Source: a virus
Reading direction: 5' to 3' (one strand)
IMG/VR virus record: IMGVR_UViG_3300025237_000013
Coordinates: 1-33,570 of that record
DNA length: 33,570 bases
This document shows, one piece after another, positions 12,139 to 21,436 of this stretch. Position numbers and translations under genes: made by a program. The notes beneath the pieces were generated by a model that saw nothing but the letters and a program-made list of their open reading frames with translations, did not search any database and was not told the origin of the DNA. The number at the start of each line of letters is the position of its first letter. The first letter of the stretch is position 1.

Positions 12139-12795
12139 TTAAAATAATCTTGTTTGTTCTATGTTCTTATTACTTATAATACCTAAAGCTGTTTCTAATA
12201 TAGTTTTCCCTGCTTCATAGTCTACTAGATTACGAGCCACTTTATCTATTCTTTGTTTCCCTTTATATTTTGTGAAGTCGTAATCATGAAATTTGCTTAA
12301 ATCAGAAACTTTAGAGTGTATAAAATTACTTGCTTTTCTACCTTTTAAATCGTTTGGTAAATTAAAGTTAGTCCAATATAAATGTCTATCTCTTTTTTTA
12401 GCAACCATTAAAGGTTCGTAAAAAGGTATTACATTTTCAACAACATATTTACCTTTAAAAAAATGTTCTAATAATAATATTTCTTGATATAATTTCATAT
12501 CAGGATAAGTTGCTTTAGATTTTCTCTCGCCTTCACCAGTATTTGTTTTCCTCATTCGGCTATGAGTTGGGCAAGGAGGCGAGCTCCAAATAAAATCATA
12601 GTTCATATAGTTTTCTAATAAAAAAGCGTGTGCATCTGAAACAATTACTTTATCATTCGGGAATCTTTTTTGATATAATTTTGCTAATTCTTCATCAATT
12701 TCAACAGCAGTAATTTCTAGATTATCAGAAACTTCATCCCACTTGTATCTGTTACCGCCTAAACAAGCGTATAAATTTAATATTTTGTATTTCAT
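12139..12795 (-). CDS. DNA (cytosine-5)-methyltransferase, short phage type
   Basis: 218 aa. Motif I LNLYACLGGNRYKW (SAM binding), acidic motif II AVEIDEEL, motif IV SSPPCPTHS with catalytic Cys75, motif VI VVENVIPFY (118-126), RHLYW in the target-recognition region, and KVARNLVDYEAGKTILETAL as the motif X-like return to SAM. It is much shorter than cellular C5 methylases (over 300 aa), but all core motifs are present. No restriction enzyme lies nearby, so it probably protects phage DNA from host restriction. It has its own host-type promoter at 12813-12844. Confidence 0.85.
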   Translation of the reverse strand: MKYKILNLYACLGGNRYKWDEVSDNLEITAVEIDEELAKLYQKRFPNDKVIVSDAHAFLLENYMNYDFIWSSPPCPTHSRMRKTNTGEGERKSKATYPDMKLYQEILLLEHFFKGKYVVENVIPFYEPLMVAKKRDRHLYWTNFNLPNDLKGRKASNFIHSKVSDLSKFHDYDFTKYKGKQRIDKVARNLVDYEAGKTILETALGIISNKNIEQTRLF

Positions 12796-15224: not shown

Positions 15225-15479
15225 TTATTTGTTTTTTATTTTTTCAAATTCTTGCCACTCTTTTGTAGTTGAGTGCATAGATATCAACAAACAAGTTAAT
15301 CCACCCTCTATAAACTGAATTCTATCTTCCCACCCATAAGATTGTTTTATATCATATAACTTCCCTCTAACATTATCTATTTCCGTTCTTAAATCCTCCA
15401 TTAATTCACTTAATGGTTTATCCATATCTTTAGCATTTTTGTAATAAATAGGATTTCTATTTTTATTTATTCTTTCCAT
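15225..15479 (-). CDS. Unknown protein upstream of primase (84 aa)
   Basis: 84 aa from ATG at 15479 (MERINKNRNPIYYKNAKDMD). An ATG at 15506 would add 9 residues, but the inner start overlaps the methyltransferase stop by only 13 nt and is preferred. The sequence LSELMEDLRTEIDNVRGKLY and a GWEDRIQFIEGGLTCLL segment indicate a helical protein. Not recognised; coupled to the primase gene 11 nt downstream, so a replication accessory role is possible. Confidence 0.6.
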   Translation of the reverse strand: MERINKNRNPIYYKNAKDMDKPLSELMEDLRTEIDNVRGKLYDIKQSYGWEDRIQFIEGGLTCLLISMHSTTKEWQEFEKIKNK

Positions 15480-16108
15480 TTTGTTTGTTTTAATATTTCT
15501 ATACATAATTGCTGTGGTATTTTAGAGCGTTCATAATTATTTTTTAATCCTTGTGTTCCTGTTTTAGATCCTCTTGGTGCTGGTTCGTGATGGCATTTAG
15601 TATTACCATTGAAACATATAGCTCTTGGCTTCCAACCGTTAGGATTAAATAAAGGATTGTAAATATTGTTACTCCATATATCAGTAGGCTTTGCTCTTTT
15701 ATCTCCGTAAGTACAATACCATATTGTTACTTTTGCTATTCCTTTCATAAAATCCATCTTTCTTAAATAACCTCTAGGGTTTTCAATATAGTATTTTGCA
15801 TTTGGAAACTGACTAATAATTTTTAAAGTATTTAAAACTAACCTATCGCTTTTTTCTGCAAATGGTGTTTTAGGTTTTCCATTATCTCTATGCTTACTAA
15901 TAGCTGCTATTGAATAAGTAGTACAGGGAGGGGATGCCCATATTAAATCTGGTACAAAAGGGATCTGTTCTTTTGTTAAAAACTCAATATCTTGTACTAA
16001 GTCTATATTTTCAAAATTGTTTATATCTATGCTAAAGACATTATGCCCTAGTTTATCAGCAATCTTTCCAATAGAACGTGATCCAGCAAATAACTCTAAT
16101 ACATTCAT
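15467..16108 (-). CDS. DNA (cytosine-5)-methyltransferase, short phage type (first copy)
   Basis: 213 aa. Motif I LELFAGSRSIGK (4-15), SIDINN acidic motif II, motif IV ASPPCTTYS with catalytic Cys62, and motif VI YIENPRGYLR (109-116; ENP instead of the usual ENV). C-terminal SKIPQQLCIEILKQ resembles the motif X end ('vP..L...i'). Target recognition lies in the short segment with TDIWSNN and GWKPRAICFNG. Different enough from the 218-aa methylase at 12139 that they likely recognise different sites. First gene of the unit that includes the primase. Confidence 0.82.
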   Translation of the reverse strand: MNVLELFAGSRSIGKIADKLGHNVFSIDINNFENIDLVQDIEFLTKEQIPFVPDLIWASPPCTTYSIAAISKHRDNGKPKTPFAEKSDRLVLNTLKIISQFPNAKYYIENPRGYLRKMDFMKGIAKVTIWYCTYGDKRAKPTDIWSNNIYNPLFNPNGWKPRAICFNGNTKCHHEPAPRGSKTGTQGLKNNYERSKIPQQLCIEILKQTKWKE

Positions 16109-18253: not shown

Positions 18254-18976
18254 TTATAATTTCATTTTTACGTTAATTGCAGTTTCTCCATTTATTATAA
18301 CACCAACACCGATAGCTTCTTTCTTACCTCCCTGCATATATCCCATTGCGTAAGATTTACTATCTATACCACAACCTACTTGCATACCAAATAAAGCAGA
18401 GTACTTACCGAAAAACCATTCTGTATACATTTGTGTGTGAAAGTGTCCAGATACAGTACTTACCATATCTCTTTTGGCTGCTGTTTTTGCTGCCGAAGAT
18501 TTATCACCATGTACATATCTAACACCATCTATATAAACCTCTGTTACAAAATTCCAATTAGGCGTTTCTAAGACTTCTTTATATTCCTTTATCCACTTGC
18601 TTGGTATGTTACTTGTTTGCGCCTTACGTACAATAATACGATCATGGTTTCCTAAAGTAACATCAGCTTTTGGGAATGCTTTATACCAACGTGCTATTCT
18701 TTTTATTGCTAACTCTAATTCTGCTTTACCACCCATTCCATCTGCTGACGTTTCGTGATAAGAACTAAAATGCGAATCAATAATATCGCCAATCATGACG
18801 ACCTTGTTACAATTGTATTCTTTGTAGGTGTCTTTACAGAATTTTAAATAACCATCTAAGCAAAAAGGCTCATGTAAATCACCGATACATAATACTCTTG
18901 ATTCTACTTTTGTTATCTTTTCGTACGCTTTTAGGATGTTTCCTTTTAATCTTGGTCTAAAATCTTTATTACTCAT
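18254..18976 (-). CDS. Calcineurin-like metallophosphoesterase
   Basis: 240 aa with the full set of metallophosphatase motifs: D-x-H in CIGDLHEPF (D33, H35), GDxxD in IGDIIDSH (63-67), GNHDR (109-113), a His in VRYVHGD (H156) and GHFH (177-180). These bind two metal ions. Phage members of this type are nucleases or phosphatases acting on DNA or RNA ends, or on nucleotides. It is the first gene of the minus-strand early region, adjacent to the divergent cassette array, with a host-type promoter at 18992-19020. Confidence 0.88.
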   Translation of the reverse strand: MSNKDFRPRLKGNILKAYEKITKVESRVLCIGDLHEPFCLDGYLKFCKDTYKEYNCNKVVMIGDIIDSHFSSYHETSADGMGGKAELELAIKRIARWYKAFPKADVTLGNHDRIIVRKAQTSNIPSKWIKEYKEVLETPNWNFVTEVYIDGVRYVHGDKSSAAKTAAKRDMVSTVSGHFHTQMYTEWFFGKYSALFGMQVGCGIDSKSYAMGYMQGGKKEAIGVGVIINGETAINVKMKL

Positions 18977-19020: not shown

Positions 19021-19059
19021 TTAGGTAGTTTAATTTATTTATTATATATTTGCTTTTTA

Positions 19060-19105
19060 TAACGGTTTGGGTATGGCATCGTTTAATGTGTTATACACGT
19101 TGTTA
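19060..19105 (+). repeat. attC-like palindrome S1
   Basis: Left arm TAACGGTTTGGGTAT, right arm ATACACGTTGTTA, 46 nt in all. The arms pair imperfectly, with extra bases in the left arm. The tip contains CGTTTAATG, a form of the CGTTTTAATG that recurs in S2 and S8. First site of the cassette array. Confidence 0.65.
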
Positions 19106-19208
19106 ATTCCTTTTATATTGTTAGTTAAGTATCAATATATAGGTTTATAATTAACAGATTAATCGTTACATTAAGTAAATGTGATTTTTGTAACAATATA
19201 ATTGTACT

Positions 19209-19257
19209 TAACGGTAAGTGTAACACATCGTTTTAATGTGTGTTATATATTGTTATC
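19209..19257 (+). repeat. attC-like palindrome S2
   Basis: Left arm TAACGGTAAGTGTAACACAT, tip CGTTTTA, right arm ATGTGTGTTATATATTGTTA followed by TC. Its right box GTTATCTA (19252-19259) is complementary to TAGATAAC at 19450-19457, the 3' box of the unit that follows. The 103 nt between S1 and S2 hold no credible gene. Confidence 0.7.
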
Positions 19258-19279
19258 TAACTTTTTAAAATTTTAAACA

Positions 19280-19456
19280 ATGACTAATACAAATAAATAC
19301 AAGATTGAGAAATTAGGAATGTACTGGCATCTTCTACGACTGCACTATGTAGGGTGGTCTGTCTTTAAAAGAAAAGTATGGTTAACAGAGTTTCCTTATT
19401 ATTGGCATAAAGAAGATGCTGACAAGGCACTTAAAGAAATTTTAAATTGTAGATAA
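19280..19456 (+). CDS. Cassette protein 1, unknown (58 aa)
   Basis: 58 aa, MTNTNKYKIEKLGMYWHLLR, Trp/Tyr-rich (LHYVGWSVFKRKVWLTEFPY, YWHKEDADKAL). Not recognised. The gene fills the unit from GTTATCTA (19252) to TAGATAAC (19450), and its stop codon TAA lies inside the 3' box. It is on the opposite strand to the flanking phage operons. Host origin or cassette origin is likely; function unknown. Confidence 0.65.
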   Translation: MTNTNKYKIEKLGMYWHLLRLHYVGWSVFKRKVWLTEFPYYWHKEDADKALKEILNCR

Positions 19457-19584
19457 CGTATTTAGATAAGATTTTATTTTTAACAACAGTACAAAAACAT
19501 AATAAAGAATGAGTATAGCATATAAAGATGACAGTAGCGGTGAATACGCTAAGAGTAAAAATTTAATTTTATCTAGTGTTACCC
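19450..19584 (+). repeat. attC-like palindrome S3 (right arm inside an ORF)
   Basis: Left arm TAACGTATTTAGATAAGAT (from 19454), right arm AATTTTATCTAGTGTTA ending in box GTTACCC (19578-19584). The arms pair over TAGATAAGAT/ATTTTATCTA. The intervening 90 nt hold the start of the 62-aa ORF. Confidence 0.6.
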
Positions 19585-19697
19585 AACGTAGTGACCTTTT
19601 AAGTTTTATTAAAGAGGTTGCTGAATGGGATAAAGAATACAGCAGTACAAGAATTAAATTAAGGGCAAAAGAGTTGGTTAAACTTAATTGTGGGTAA
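19509..19697 (+). CDS. Cassette protein 2, possible fusion across a recombination box (62 aa)
   Basis: 62 aa, MSIAYKDDSSGEYAKSKNLI, then SSVTQRSDLLSFIKEVAEWD and a basic end LKLNCG-type terminus (KLNCG). Codons 24-26 lie on the box GTTACCCA, complementary to the 3' box TGGGTAAC (19691-19698), which also carries the stop codon. Residues 24-62 therefore form the cassette proper, and residues 1-23 come from the preceding attC-like site. The V-T/S-Q-R-S-x-LL stretch recurs in the protein at 20023. The true start could be downstream; no better ATG exists. Confidence 0.5.
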   Translation: MSIAYKDDSSGEYAKSKNLILSSVTQRSDLLSFIKEVAEWDKEYSSTRIKLRAKELVKLNCG

Positions 19698-19786
19698 CGT
19701 ATTCGTATATGATTAGTACGACAAAAAACAAATATTAATAAACAAATAAGACATAGTAAGTATTAATTATATACGTTGTTATGCAC
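19692..19786 (+). repeat. attC-like palindrome S4
   Basis: Left arm TAACGTATTCGTATATGATT (from 19695), right arm ATTATATACGTTGTTA ending in box GTTATGCAC (19778-19786). About 50 nt of AT-rich sequence lies between the arms. Confidence 0.7.
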
Positions 19787-19796
19787 TTTTAAAATT

Positions 19797-19961
19797 ATGG
19801 CAAATATAAATATAAAAGAAATAAGTAACGATATAATAGAAATACTTGGCGTTACTTATTATACTGAAAGTTATTTAAAAGAAATGATGTTAAGGGAAAG
19901 GTATAAAGGACTATTAGAAGGAAGGCAAGTTTTTGTAGCTGAATTTAAGGAGATATTTTAA
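19797..19961 (+). CDS. Cassette protein 3, unknown (54 aa)
   Basis: 54 aa from the ATG at 19797, MANINIKEISNDIIEILGVT then YYTESYLKEMMLRERYKGLL and EFKEIF; mostly helical. Starting at this ATG rather than an upstream TTG keeps it wholly between the boxes GTTATGC (19778) and GCATAAC (19966-19972), which are exact complements. Function unknown. Confidence 0.6.
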   Translation: MANINIKEISNDIIEILGVTYYTESYLKEMMLRERYKGLLEGRQVFVAEFKEIF

Positions 19962-19965
19962 TTGG

Positions 19966-20158
19966 GCATAACGTATTCGTATAAAGAAAGTAAATATAAT
20001 TTAAACTTAAATATTAAAAGAAATGAAAACAGAACTTTTTAAATTGATTGAGAGAAACTCGGCAGATATAGAGGAATCTTCTAAAAACGGAATAATAGCT
20101 CATCATGTAGATGTTGATGAACTAGTAAATGATTTATTTACTTTATGCGGTGTTAGCC
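19966..20158 (+). repeat. attC-like palindrome S5 (long; right arm inside an ORF)
   Basis: Left GCATAACGTATTCGTATAAAG, right ATTTACTTTATGCGGTGTTA ending in box GTTAGCC (20152-20158). Pairing is weaker than in S3 and S7, and the loop (about 145 nt) carries the first 43 codons of the 101-aa ORF. Confidence 0.45.
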
Positions 20159-20328
20159 AACGAAGTAAACTGTTAAAGGCAGAGGATAAAGATATGTCTT
20201 TTAATGATTACATACAGAAGTATTTTGAAGAACCTAAAGTTGAATTAACTTATAAAAGTAAAAAGAACAAAAATGTTATGACTGAAACCGAGTTGATAAA
20301 ATACTACAAAAGAGCTATGTGCCTTTAA
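20023..20328 (+). CDS. Cassette protein 4, possible fusion across a recombination box (101 aa)
   Basis: 101 aa. N-terminal part MKTELFKLIERNSADIEESS...DVDELVNDLFTLCG, then VSQRSKLLKAEDKDMSFNDY and a Lys-rich C-terminal half. Val44-Ser45 lie on box GTTAGCCA (20152-20159), complementary to the 3' box TGGCTAAC (20332-20339). In another frame the end reads NCG-stop, like the 62-aa cassette protein, so a small frameshift may have altered the original terminus. Function unknown. Confidence 0.6.
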   Translation: MKTELFKLIERNSADIEESSKNGIIAHHVDVDELVNDLFTLCGVSQRSKLLKAEDKDMSFNDYIQKYFEEPKVELTYKSKKNKNVMTETELIKYYKRAMCL

Positions 20329-20331
20329 TTG

Positions 20332-20391
20332 TGGCTAACGTTTAGTATATGAGCCGTTTTTTTCTATGGCTTATATACATTGTTGTAGCAC
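20332..20391 (+). repeat. attC-like palindrome S6
   Basis: Best-formed site. TGGCTAACGTTTA, then an 11-bp stem GTATATGAGCC / GGCTTATATAC (one G-T pair, 12-nt loop), then ATTGTTGTAGCAC. The right box GTTGTAGCAC is at 20382-20391. Confidence 0.75.
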
Positions 20392-20413
20392 GTTAATTTT
20401 AAAACAAATAATT

Positions 20414-20632
20414 ATGATAACAAATTGGAATGACAAGATAACCTTTGGAAAATTTAAAGGTGATACGGTAAAAGAAGTTTTTGAATATGATGCAACTTAC
20501 TTATGGTGGGCGATGATGAATACAGATAATACAAACTTTGCAGAAGAAGTGAAAAATGGTATTCAAAAACGAACCGAAGAAATAAATGCTGAAAAGTATG
20601 AGGATTTATCTTGGGGTGATTTCTGCACTTAA
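20414..20632 (+). CDS. Cassette protein 5, ExoX-like C-terminal domain (72 aa)
   Basis: 72 aa from the ATG at 20414, MITNWNDKITFGKFKGDTVK then EVFEYDATYLWWAMMNTDN. The 'FGKFKG.T..EV...D..YL.W' pattern is that of the small ExoX-like C-terminal (DUF3820-like) domain, found alone or at the end of DnaQ-type exonucleases and thought to bind nucleic acid. The unit is bounded by exact 10-nt complements GTTGTAGCAC (20382) and GTGCTACAAC (20634). An upstream start at 20366 would run through the right arm of S6 and was not used. Confidence 0.7.
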   Translation: MITNWNDKITFGKFKGDTVKEVFEYDATYLWWAMMNTDNTNFAEEVKNGIQKRTEEINAEKYEDLSWGDFCT

Positions 20633-20633
20633 T

Positions 20634-20766
20634 GTGCTACAACGTGTTGTATATGGAATGTTGCGTAAAATTAGACTTAAATTAATAGATATGAAAAAAA
20701 TAAAAGGTATTAGAATACTTAAAGGAAATATAGATAATAAGCAATTTTCTATATACGGTGTTAGCA
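20634..20766 (+). repeat. attC-like palindrome S7 (right arm inside an ORF)
   Basis: Left GTGCTACAACGTGTT then GTATATGGAA; right TTCTATATACGGTGTTAGC. The GTATATGGAA/TTCTATATAC stem pairs with one G-T. Box GTTAGCATTA (20760-20769) lies in the coding frame of the 80-aa ORF. Confidence 0.65.
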
Positions 20767-20933
20767 TTAGTTTTTTTGCCAAGTTGTTTAAACCTCACTT
20801 AATTTGGGATTGGTACGACTTTGGTTTAATGCTGAAAATTAATAAGCAAAACAATATTGGAAACTATCACTTTGCAATAGACATACAAATAGCATGGCTA
20901 AACCTTTGGGTACAGTGTTGGCAAAAACATTAA
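20691..20933 (+). CDS. Cassette protein 6, possible fusion across a recombination box (80 aa)
   Basis: 80 aa from the ATG at 20691, MKKIKGIRILKGNIDNKQFS, IYGVSISFFAKLFKPHLIWD, WYDFGLMLKINKQNNIGNYH, then AIDIQIAWLNLWVQCWQKH; aromatic and hydrophobic. Val24-Ser25 lie on box GTTAGCATTA, complementary over 10 nt to TAATGCTAAC at 20931-20940. The stop codon TAA overlaps that 3' box. Residues 1-23 are encoded inside S7. Function unknown; an interfacial or membrane-associated protein is possible. Confidence 0.55.
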   Translation: MKKIKGIRILKGNIDNKQFSIYGVSISFFAKLFKPHLIWDWYDFGLMLKINKQNNIGNYHFAIDIQIAWLNLWVQCWQKH

Positions 20934-20934
20934 T

Positions 20935-20982
20935 GCTAACAATATTATAAATGGCGTTTTAATGCCTTTTATGATAAGTTAT
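20935..20982 (+). repeat. attC-like palindrome S8, end of the array
   Basis: Left GCTAACAATATTATAAATGGC, tip GTTTTAAT, right GCCTTTTATGATAAGTTAT. It contains GGCGTTTTAATGCC, related to the tips of S1 and S2. Confidence 0.65.
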
Positions 20983-21002
20983 AAAGCGTTTTAATGCTTT
21001 AT
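20981..21002. terminator. Perfect hairpin at the convergent end of lysis operon and cassette array
   Basis: ATAAAGC-GTTTTAAT-GCTTTAT, a 7-bp stem with the same 8-nt loop as S8. It overlaps the spanin stop codon. It may end minus-strand late transcripts, but no strong T run follows. Confidence 0.4.
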
Positions 21003-21436
21003 TTAAACCTTAATAATAACGCACAAATAACCGTTATAAGAATGCTGTAAATTAAAAGCCATAAAGGAGTTTTATATCTTATAATTTCTTCCGAAGATTC
21101 TTTTATTTTATTCTCGTACTTAATTCTATACTTATTTTCAAAGATGCTTTCATAAGCCTTTAAATCAATTTTAGCCTGTATAGAGCCATCAACAGATATA
21201 ATATCTATTTTACCCTGTGGCACACTAATAGATTGCTTAAAAGGTCTTAAATTACCTAAGCTATCACAAGGCTTTTCAACTGTTAAAGTATCTGTAAATC
21301 TTTCTGTAATAATTCTATCTTTTGTAACTATTAAAGTATCTACTTGTTTAATGTGTTCCTTTTTAATAGTTGTCTTTTTTGTAGCACAACTTAGCATTAA
21401 AAAAGTAAATAAAATAAATAAAATGTTTTTGTTCAT
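20999..21436 (-). CDS. Unimolecular spanin (u-spanin)
   Basis: 145 aa. N-terminal lipoprotein signal MNKNILFILFTFLMLSC with lipobox LMLSC (lipidated Cys17), a periplasmic region rich in charged residues and strands (KQVDTLIVTKDRIITERFTD, YRIKYENKIKESSEEIIRYK), and a C-terminal transmembrane helix WLLIYSILITVICALLL followed by RFK. An outer-membrane lipid anchor plus an inner-membrane helix in one chain is the definition of a u-spanin (T1 gp11 type), which fuses the two membranes at the end of lysis. It is the last gene of the lysis module, as is usual. Confidence 0.8.
   Translation of the reverse strand: MNKNILFILFTFLMLSCATKKTTIKKEHIKQVDTLIVTKDRIITERFTDTLTVEKPCDSLGNLRPFKQSISVPQGKIDIISVDGSIQAKIDLKAYESIFENKYRIKYENKIKESSEEIIRYKTPLWLLIYSILITVICALLLRFK

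Follow-up and report, generated by a model that had tools for sequence, protein, structure and literature searches.

A probable integron-type array of mobile gene cassettes without its own integrase in a phage contig

The window, a 33.6 kb (33,570 nt) linear phage contig from IMG/VR that was analysed at its full length, very probably carries an integron-type array of mobile cassettes that lacks an integrase of its own and lies in a resident attC site, which doubles as a terminator hairpin. In published descriptions, integrons are platforms of bacteria whose cassettes are canonical and whose IntI carries a special helix. No intI with the IntI additional domain is present in the window, which therefore does not hold a complete integron, and the array falls under the structural definition of a CALIN (at least two attC sites without an integrase). 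The original prediction of a cassette array that is CALIN-like and has attC sites of a Bacteroidetes type is supported, as is the predicted absence of an integrase from the window, where a search for tyrosine recombinases was negative. The array region (19060-21000) consists of units of one gene and one attC with matching R boxes, and its coordinates are collected in Table 1.

Sites were detected by the scheme AAC, short gap, arm L'', loop, arm L', short gap, GTT, and were joined when the box after one GTT complements the box before a later AAC (R'/R'' boxes). This yielded a single chain of seven attC-like sites in the window (S2-S8) with a score of 256, against a mean of 27 (sd 12, maximum 75) in 4,246 dinucleotide shuffles. 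Only nine chains of at least 58 arose in 17.2 Mb of shuffled phage sequence, the best scoring 80, and no other chain of at least 58 was present on either strand of the window. An Rfam search gave no match. All eight sites of the original prediction are present at their places, and its local palindromes hold except at S3, S5 and S7, whose right arms sit 119-182 nt off, inside the next ORF (GTT at 19578, 20152 and 20760); the ORFs concerned thus begin within the site and cross its GTT. Once these distant right arms are used, the predicted complementarity of each unit's own boxes is seen in six of six units, with the pairs GTTATGC/GCATAAC, GTTAGCCA/TGGCTAAC, GTTGTAGCAC/GTGCTACAAC and GTTAGCATTA/TAATGCTAAC in addition to the two given in Table 1. 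It fails for the S1 unit (about 19064-19209), which has neither a matching box nor an ORF. Complementary R''/R' boxes ending in AAC and GTT are carried by the six cassettes and by the resident site.

The complementary L''/L' arms of S2-S8 form stems of 11-14 positions and, as in attC sites, are set off from the R boxes by unpaired bases (3-5 on the left, 1-3 on the right). This asymmetry is accompanied by a recurrent G-T wobble, and the L'' arm shows no clear pattern of extrahelical bases. The length of attC sites is about 57-141 nt, a range that the window exceeds both ways, from about 45 nt in S2 to about 185 nt in S5 (AAC to GTT). Phage attC lengths fall into classes of about 41-60, 81-88, 106-125 and 182-213 nt, with 126-181 nt nearly empty, and those of hosts are similar. 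In many phage cassettes the stop codon comes from the R'' box (TAA of TAAC), and examples in the window (19440-20940) are ORF2 and ORF3.

Table 1. Features of the array region and its neighbours in the window
Feature	Position	Strand	Remarks
Metallophosphoesterase gene	18254-18976	-	Left neighbour of array region
Candidate array promoter TATATTTG	19045-19052	+	Fits Bacteroidetes -7 motif; adjoins array on the left and is conserved in L001-L003, as is the sequence around it
Left half of resident attC, box TTTATAAC	19056-19063	.	Pairs with GTTATAAA at 20978-20985
S1, degenerate attC-like, with first unit	19061-19209	.	No ORF; weak fold; not joined by chain detector
Cassette 2: attC S2 (19210-19254), ORF 19280-19456 (+, 58 aa)	19210-19454	-	Chain; GTTATCTA/TAGATAAC
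Cassette 3: long attC S3 (19455-19580), ORF 19509-19697 (+, 62 aa)	19455-19695	-	Chain; GTTACCCA/TGGGTAAC; ORF starts within S3 and passes its GTT
Cassette 4: attC S4 (19696-19780), ORF 19797-19961 (+, 54 aa)	19696-19969	-	Chain; S4 common to Cellulophaga phage phi17:1 (74% over 113 nt)
Cassette 5: long attC S5 (19970-20154), ORF 20023-20328 (+, 101 aa)	19970-20336	-	Chain; ORF starts in S5 loop and passes GTT
Cassette 6: short attC S6 (20337-20384), ORF 20414-20632 (+, 72 aa)	20337-20640	-	Entire cassette also in L091; S6 common to Cellulophaga phage phi13:2 at 90%
Cassette 7: long attC S7 (20641-20762), ORF 20691-20933 (+, 80 aa)	20641-20937	-	AAC-to-AAC unit in L353, L354; ORF starts in S7 loop and passes GTT
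S8: constant resident attC, intrinsic-terminator-like hairpin, right box GTTATAAA	20938-20985	-	Kept in L001-L003; terminator scan
Gene with weak spanin similarity	20999-21436	-	Right neighbour of array region

The pairing of the two flank boxes places the array inside one resident site. Three sister phages (L001, L002 and L003), with flanks about 90% identical, hold other cassettes at the same locus; in the alignments similarity ends just past the left box and returns at the AAC of S8, which is constant in all three, while everything to its left differs. When the flanks are joined, each of the four phages shows a single hairpin. Its outer stem is TTTATAAC/GTTATAAA in the window and L003 and TTACAAC/GTTGTAA in L001 and L002; here bases lying as much as 1.9 kb from each other show compensatory change. 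Single cassettes are also found elsewhere. Cassette 7 recurs from AAC to AAC at 91-92% in L353 and L354 with different neighbours on both sides, and cassette 6 is complete in L091 at 92%, among other neighbours and with a dN/dS of 0.10. In L008, one cassette is duplicated with its limits at the left-arm AAC. Related phages thus gain and lose whole units with R-box boundaries, as the original prediction would have it (L001-L003, L091, L353/L354). Its placement of the crossover mainly at the right-arm G|TT does not hold, because the left-arm AAC is where the sisters, cassettes 6 and 7 and the L008 duplication have their breakpoints, and clear breaks at the right-arm GTT are few (L240/L243). Judged from these alignments, the cassettes are mobile units that are gained, lost and swapped between phages, with breaks at the left-arm AAC. 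The L'-GTT stretch (about 48 nt) is missing from a relative of cassette 7 (L355:194-399) and the frame is kept, as if the site had died and the gene been retained.

In three of the six cassettes of the window, the start codon and the N-terminal codons lie in the attC loop. The same overlap is present in the first phage set, where the ORF crosses the L'-GTT junction in 68 of 174 clear cassettes; this applies to 41 of 53 sites of at least 182 nt versus one of 49 sites of at most 60 nt, and ORF starts cluster 50-57 nt past AAC. The N-module encoded in the loop of ORF5 has a relative in L221 (dN/dS 0.06), and the C-module after GTT differs; comparison of the codons indicates that this loop is under purifying selection. 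ORF7 is conserved over its full length across the junction. Only these two ORFs provide good evidence, at the level of codons, that loops are translated. In L240 and L243, the bodies are 99.2% identical exactly from GTT to AAC, and the N-modules are unrelated but in frame. Similar pairs number 40 for the loop, 43 for the body and four for both, and some of the loop likeness reflects attC sequence rather than coding. Several N-loop pairs first taken as module sharing were set aside as evidence of translation, because they had too few codons or a dN/dS close to 1 or higher. With moderate confidence, these comparisons suggest a shuffling of modules at the attC junction.

Bacterial genomes scanned for one site type held arrays in Muriicola, Robiginitalea and other Bacteroidetes, adjoining an integrase in three genomes. 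Of 249 Flavobacteriaceae genomes sampled, 147 matched the host integrase at E below 1e-50. An array adjoins the integrase gene in 12 of 20 fetched host loci, in each case on the side to which that gene reads. Two of six host enzymes score above the NCBIfam cut-off of the XerA/integron-integrase model, and all six fall below that of the integron-integrase model. At the N-terminus, most host integrases (L198-L217) are extended by roughly 80-110 aa, and the phage enzymes, which are shorter, have no such extension. The alignment of host integrases was also used to retrieve viral loci, which were intended to serve the detector as negatives but yielded 46 chains; after removal of duplicates, arrays were present in 35 distinct viral loci, mostly a few hundred bases upstream of an Xer-type gene encoding 264-298 aa. 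Terminase and/or portal genes (E below 1e-6) identify eight of 34 recombinase-bearing contigs as tailed phages, and for the others the assignment rests on the IMG/VR classification. The spacing from GKG..KDR to H.LRH is 65 residues in all 33 host enzymes and 60-66 in those array-linked phage enzymes in which it could be measured, versus about 108 in IntI 2A3V, which indicates that host and phage enzymes lack the IntI additional domain; one viral outlier with a spacing of 86 carries no array. Activity reportedly depends on an IntI-specific insertion (Messier and Roy, 2001, as cited in PMC9668308), which the host and phage recombinases lack. The host integrase search was negative for the window and for the first set of array loci, and no recombinase of this kind is present in the window or in the sister sequence compared. 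A 428 aa tyrosine recombinase, distantly Xer-like, lies just past the array of Cellulophaga phage phi13:2 (L081:6121-7407); this protein, gp038, was set aside as the array enzyme as it is only weakly Xer-like.

Mobilisation of the cassettes by a specific enzyme is inferred. Ordinary homologous recombination, or phage recombination of the Red/ERF type, between similar palindromes could in principle move cassettes without any site-specific integrase, and would be in keeping with breaks at both AAC and GTT, the mosaic nature of phages and the lack of a recombinase in the window. However, each cassette retains its own complementary R'/R'' boxes, joined sites have differing arms, and arrays adjoin a recombinase in the host and viral loci counted above. 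This mode of transfer is therefore considered unlikely.

The original prediction was that a canonical CALIN, its G|TT sites on the plus strand and its genes in the canonical direction, had been captured from a host integron. The hosts do share the attC family, and the common body of L240/L243 begins exactly at GTT. Most breaks, however, are at AAC, and cassette 7 in L353 and L354 contradicts such a reading for this array. Since the main exchange is at the left-arm AAC, which is G|TT on the minus strand, the canonical attC orientation is the minus strand and the window genes are antisense to it. All lie on the plus strand, the bottom strand of attC, and are thus inverted relative to canonical integron cassettes. 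Where phage and viral contigs have no such integrase beside the array, all 174 clear cassettes are inverted (a further nine were ambiguous and eight had no gene), and so are all 156 clear cassettes of array-bearing viral loci with their own recombinase, 330 to 0 overall. The isolated phages P12002L, whose arrays the same detector picked up, and JQ (a Tenacibaculum phage) obey this rule. In host Flavobacteriaceae, all 69 clear genes are canonical and none is inverted, with 17 more cassettes lacking a clear gene, and the host arrays fix the polarity of attC relative to intI. The strand assignment is supported by folding stability: all 69 host sites are more stable as the assigned bottom strand, and so are 36 of 38 short phage sites and 96% of the 155 phage sites linked to a recombinase. 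Folding of both strands, as the original prediction had proposed, showed the plus strand of the window to be the more stable for nearly all sites. Capture from a host integron is hence unsupported for the genes, and the captured canonical array has become very improbable. Scarcely credible, finally, is the view that the palindromes merely serve as intrinsic terminators, or as RNA elements, between small genes and play no part in moving them: S6 and S8 are terminator-like in the terminator scan, but the exact unit-wise turnover in sisters and other phages contradicts it, the boxes pair across hundreds of bases, and host arrays are integrase-linked.

In the favoured integron-type reading, the hairpin of the resident attC would serve as a terminator between two convergent phage transcription units, and the array would probably be transcribed from the conserved promoter candidate in the left flank (the -7 motif of Bacteroidetes promoters is TAnnTTTG). 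As the window has no such recombinase gene, the enzyme would act in trans, presumably a tyrosine recombinase of integron type that comes from a host Flavobacteriaceae integron or from a co-infecting phage with a gene for one. It would cut the folded plus strand at AA|C, that is, at the minus-strand G|TT. The few GTT breaks (L240/L243) do not fit bottom-strand single-strand chemistry alone; occasional folding of the other strand may lead to a cut at the right-arm GTT, which would part the loop-encoded N-module from the C-module and give chimeric proteins. A bolder proposal, to which we give somewhat less than an even chance, is that Bacteroidetes phages run their own inverted integron, in which a compact Xer-type recombinase without the IntI helix would act on folded attC, genes would lie on the recombinogenic strand, and the junction would be an in-frame fusion point at which N- and C-modules of small proteins are shuffled combinatorially.

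The six cassette ORFs of the window are small and mostly without a match. In PHROGs, one has weak matches (E 0.015 and 0.088) and the others none, and ORF3, ORF5 and ORF7 have no homologue among the isolated phages in the collection. A scan of 88 proteins from phage cassettes gave 22 member matches to the four main DNA methyltransferase families of Pfam, in which a single protein may count in more than one family; other phage cargo includes a Mom protein, a PAPS reductase domain and a PemK-like domain. The richness of the relatives' cargo in DNA methyltransferases suggests an exchange of anti-restriction and other small accessory genes, and by analogy the window ORFs would fit anti-restriction or accessory roles. 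Outside the array, the ORFs at 12139-12795 and 15467-16108 (minus strand) resemble, by eye, proteins of DNA-methyltransferase type. Alongside the related recombinase of the 147 Flavobacteriaceae genomes, phages have a cassette pool of their own, which is strictly inverted. This system, once confirmed, would show how phages exchange anti-restriction and other small genes, would test the real need for the IntI helix in single-strand recombination, and would offer an example of protein-module shuffling through site-specific recombination.

Phage-borne cassette arrays are already known, as 17 phage CALINs have been published, one of them from the flavobacterial Polaribacter phage P12002L, and IntI1 acted at G|TT on one P12002L attC in an E. 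coli recombination assay (Qi et al., 2023; PMC9892861). Like the window array, the P12002L CALINs are integrase-less attC clusters in a lytic flavobacterial phage, and they carry methyltransferase cargo, as do relatives of the window array. Divergent attC directions were noted there without a stated rule; unlike here, that paper has no description of a systematic inversion, of genes that begin within attC, of module shuffling or of phage arrays that bear a recombinase (PMC9892861). One complete Bacteroidetes integron, that of Salinibacter ruber, was named in the 2022 IntegronFinder 2.0 survey (PMC9024848). What appears new here is the strict inversion, the attC-overlapping genes, the shuffling of N- and C-modules at the attC junction and an overlooked recombinase family; in the open-access literature, with bioRxiv preprints outside the scope, no description of systematic inversion, attC-overlapping genes or recombinase-linked phage arrays was found, and novelty is not proven. 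Sedentary chromosomal integrons (Vibrio-type IntI/attC/attI) share the R/L box logic, the bottom-strand stability and the unit-wise movement, and share with the hosts examined an attC array adjoining the integrase, whereas the window has no integrase and inverted genes, and the additional domain of IntI is absent from the related integrases. Flavobacteriaceae integron-like loci (e.g. Muriicola jejuensis L156) have the attC family of the window, some core sites being near-identical to S6; unlike the window, their genes are canonical in the sample and their integrase lies on the cassette strand. The phage loci with an Xer-type recombinase and an inverted array (L274-L349) have the site grammar, length classes and inverted genes of the window, and differ from it in carrying their own recombinase at the right array end.
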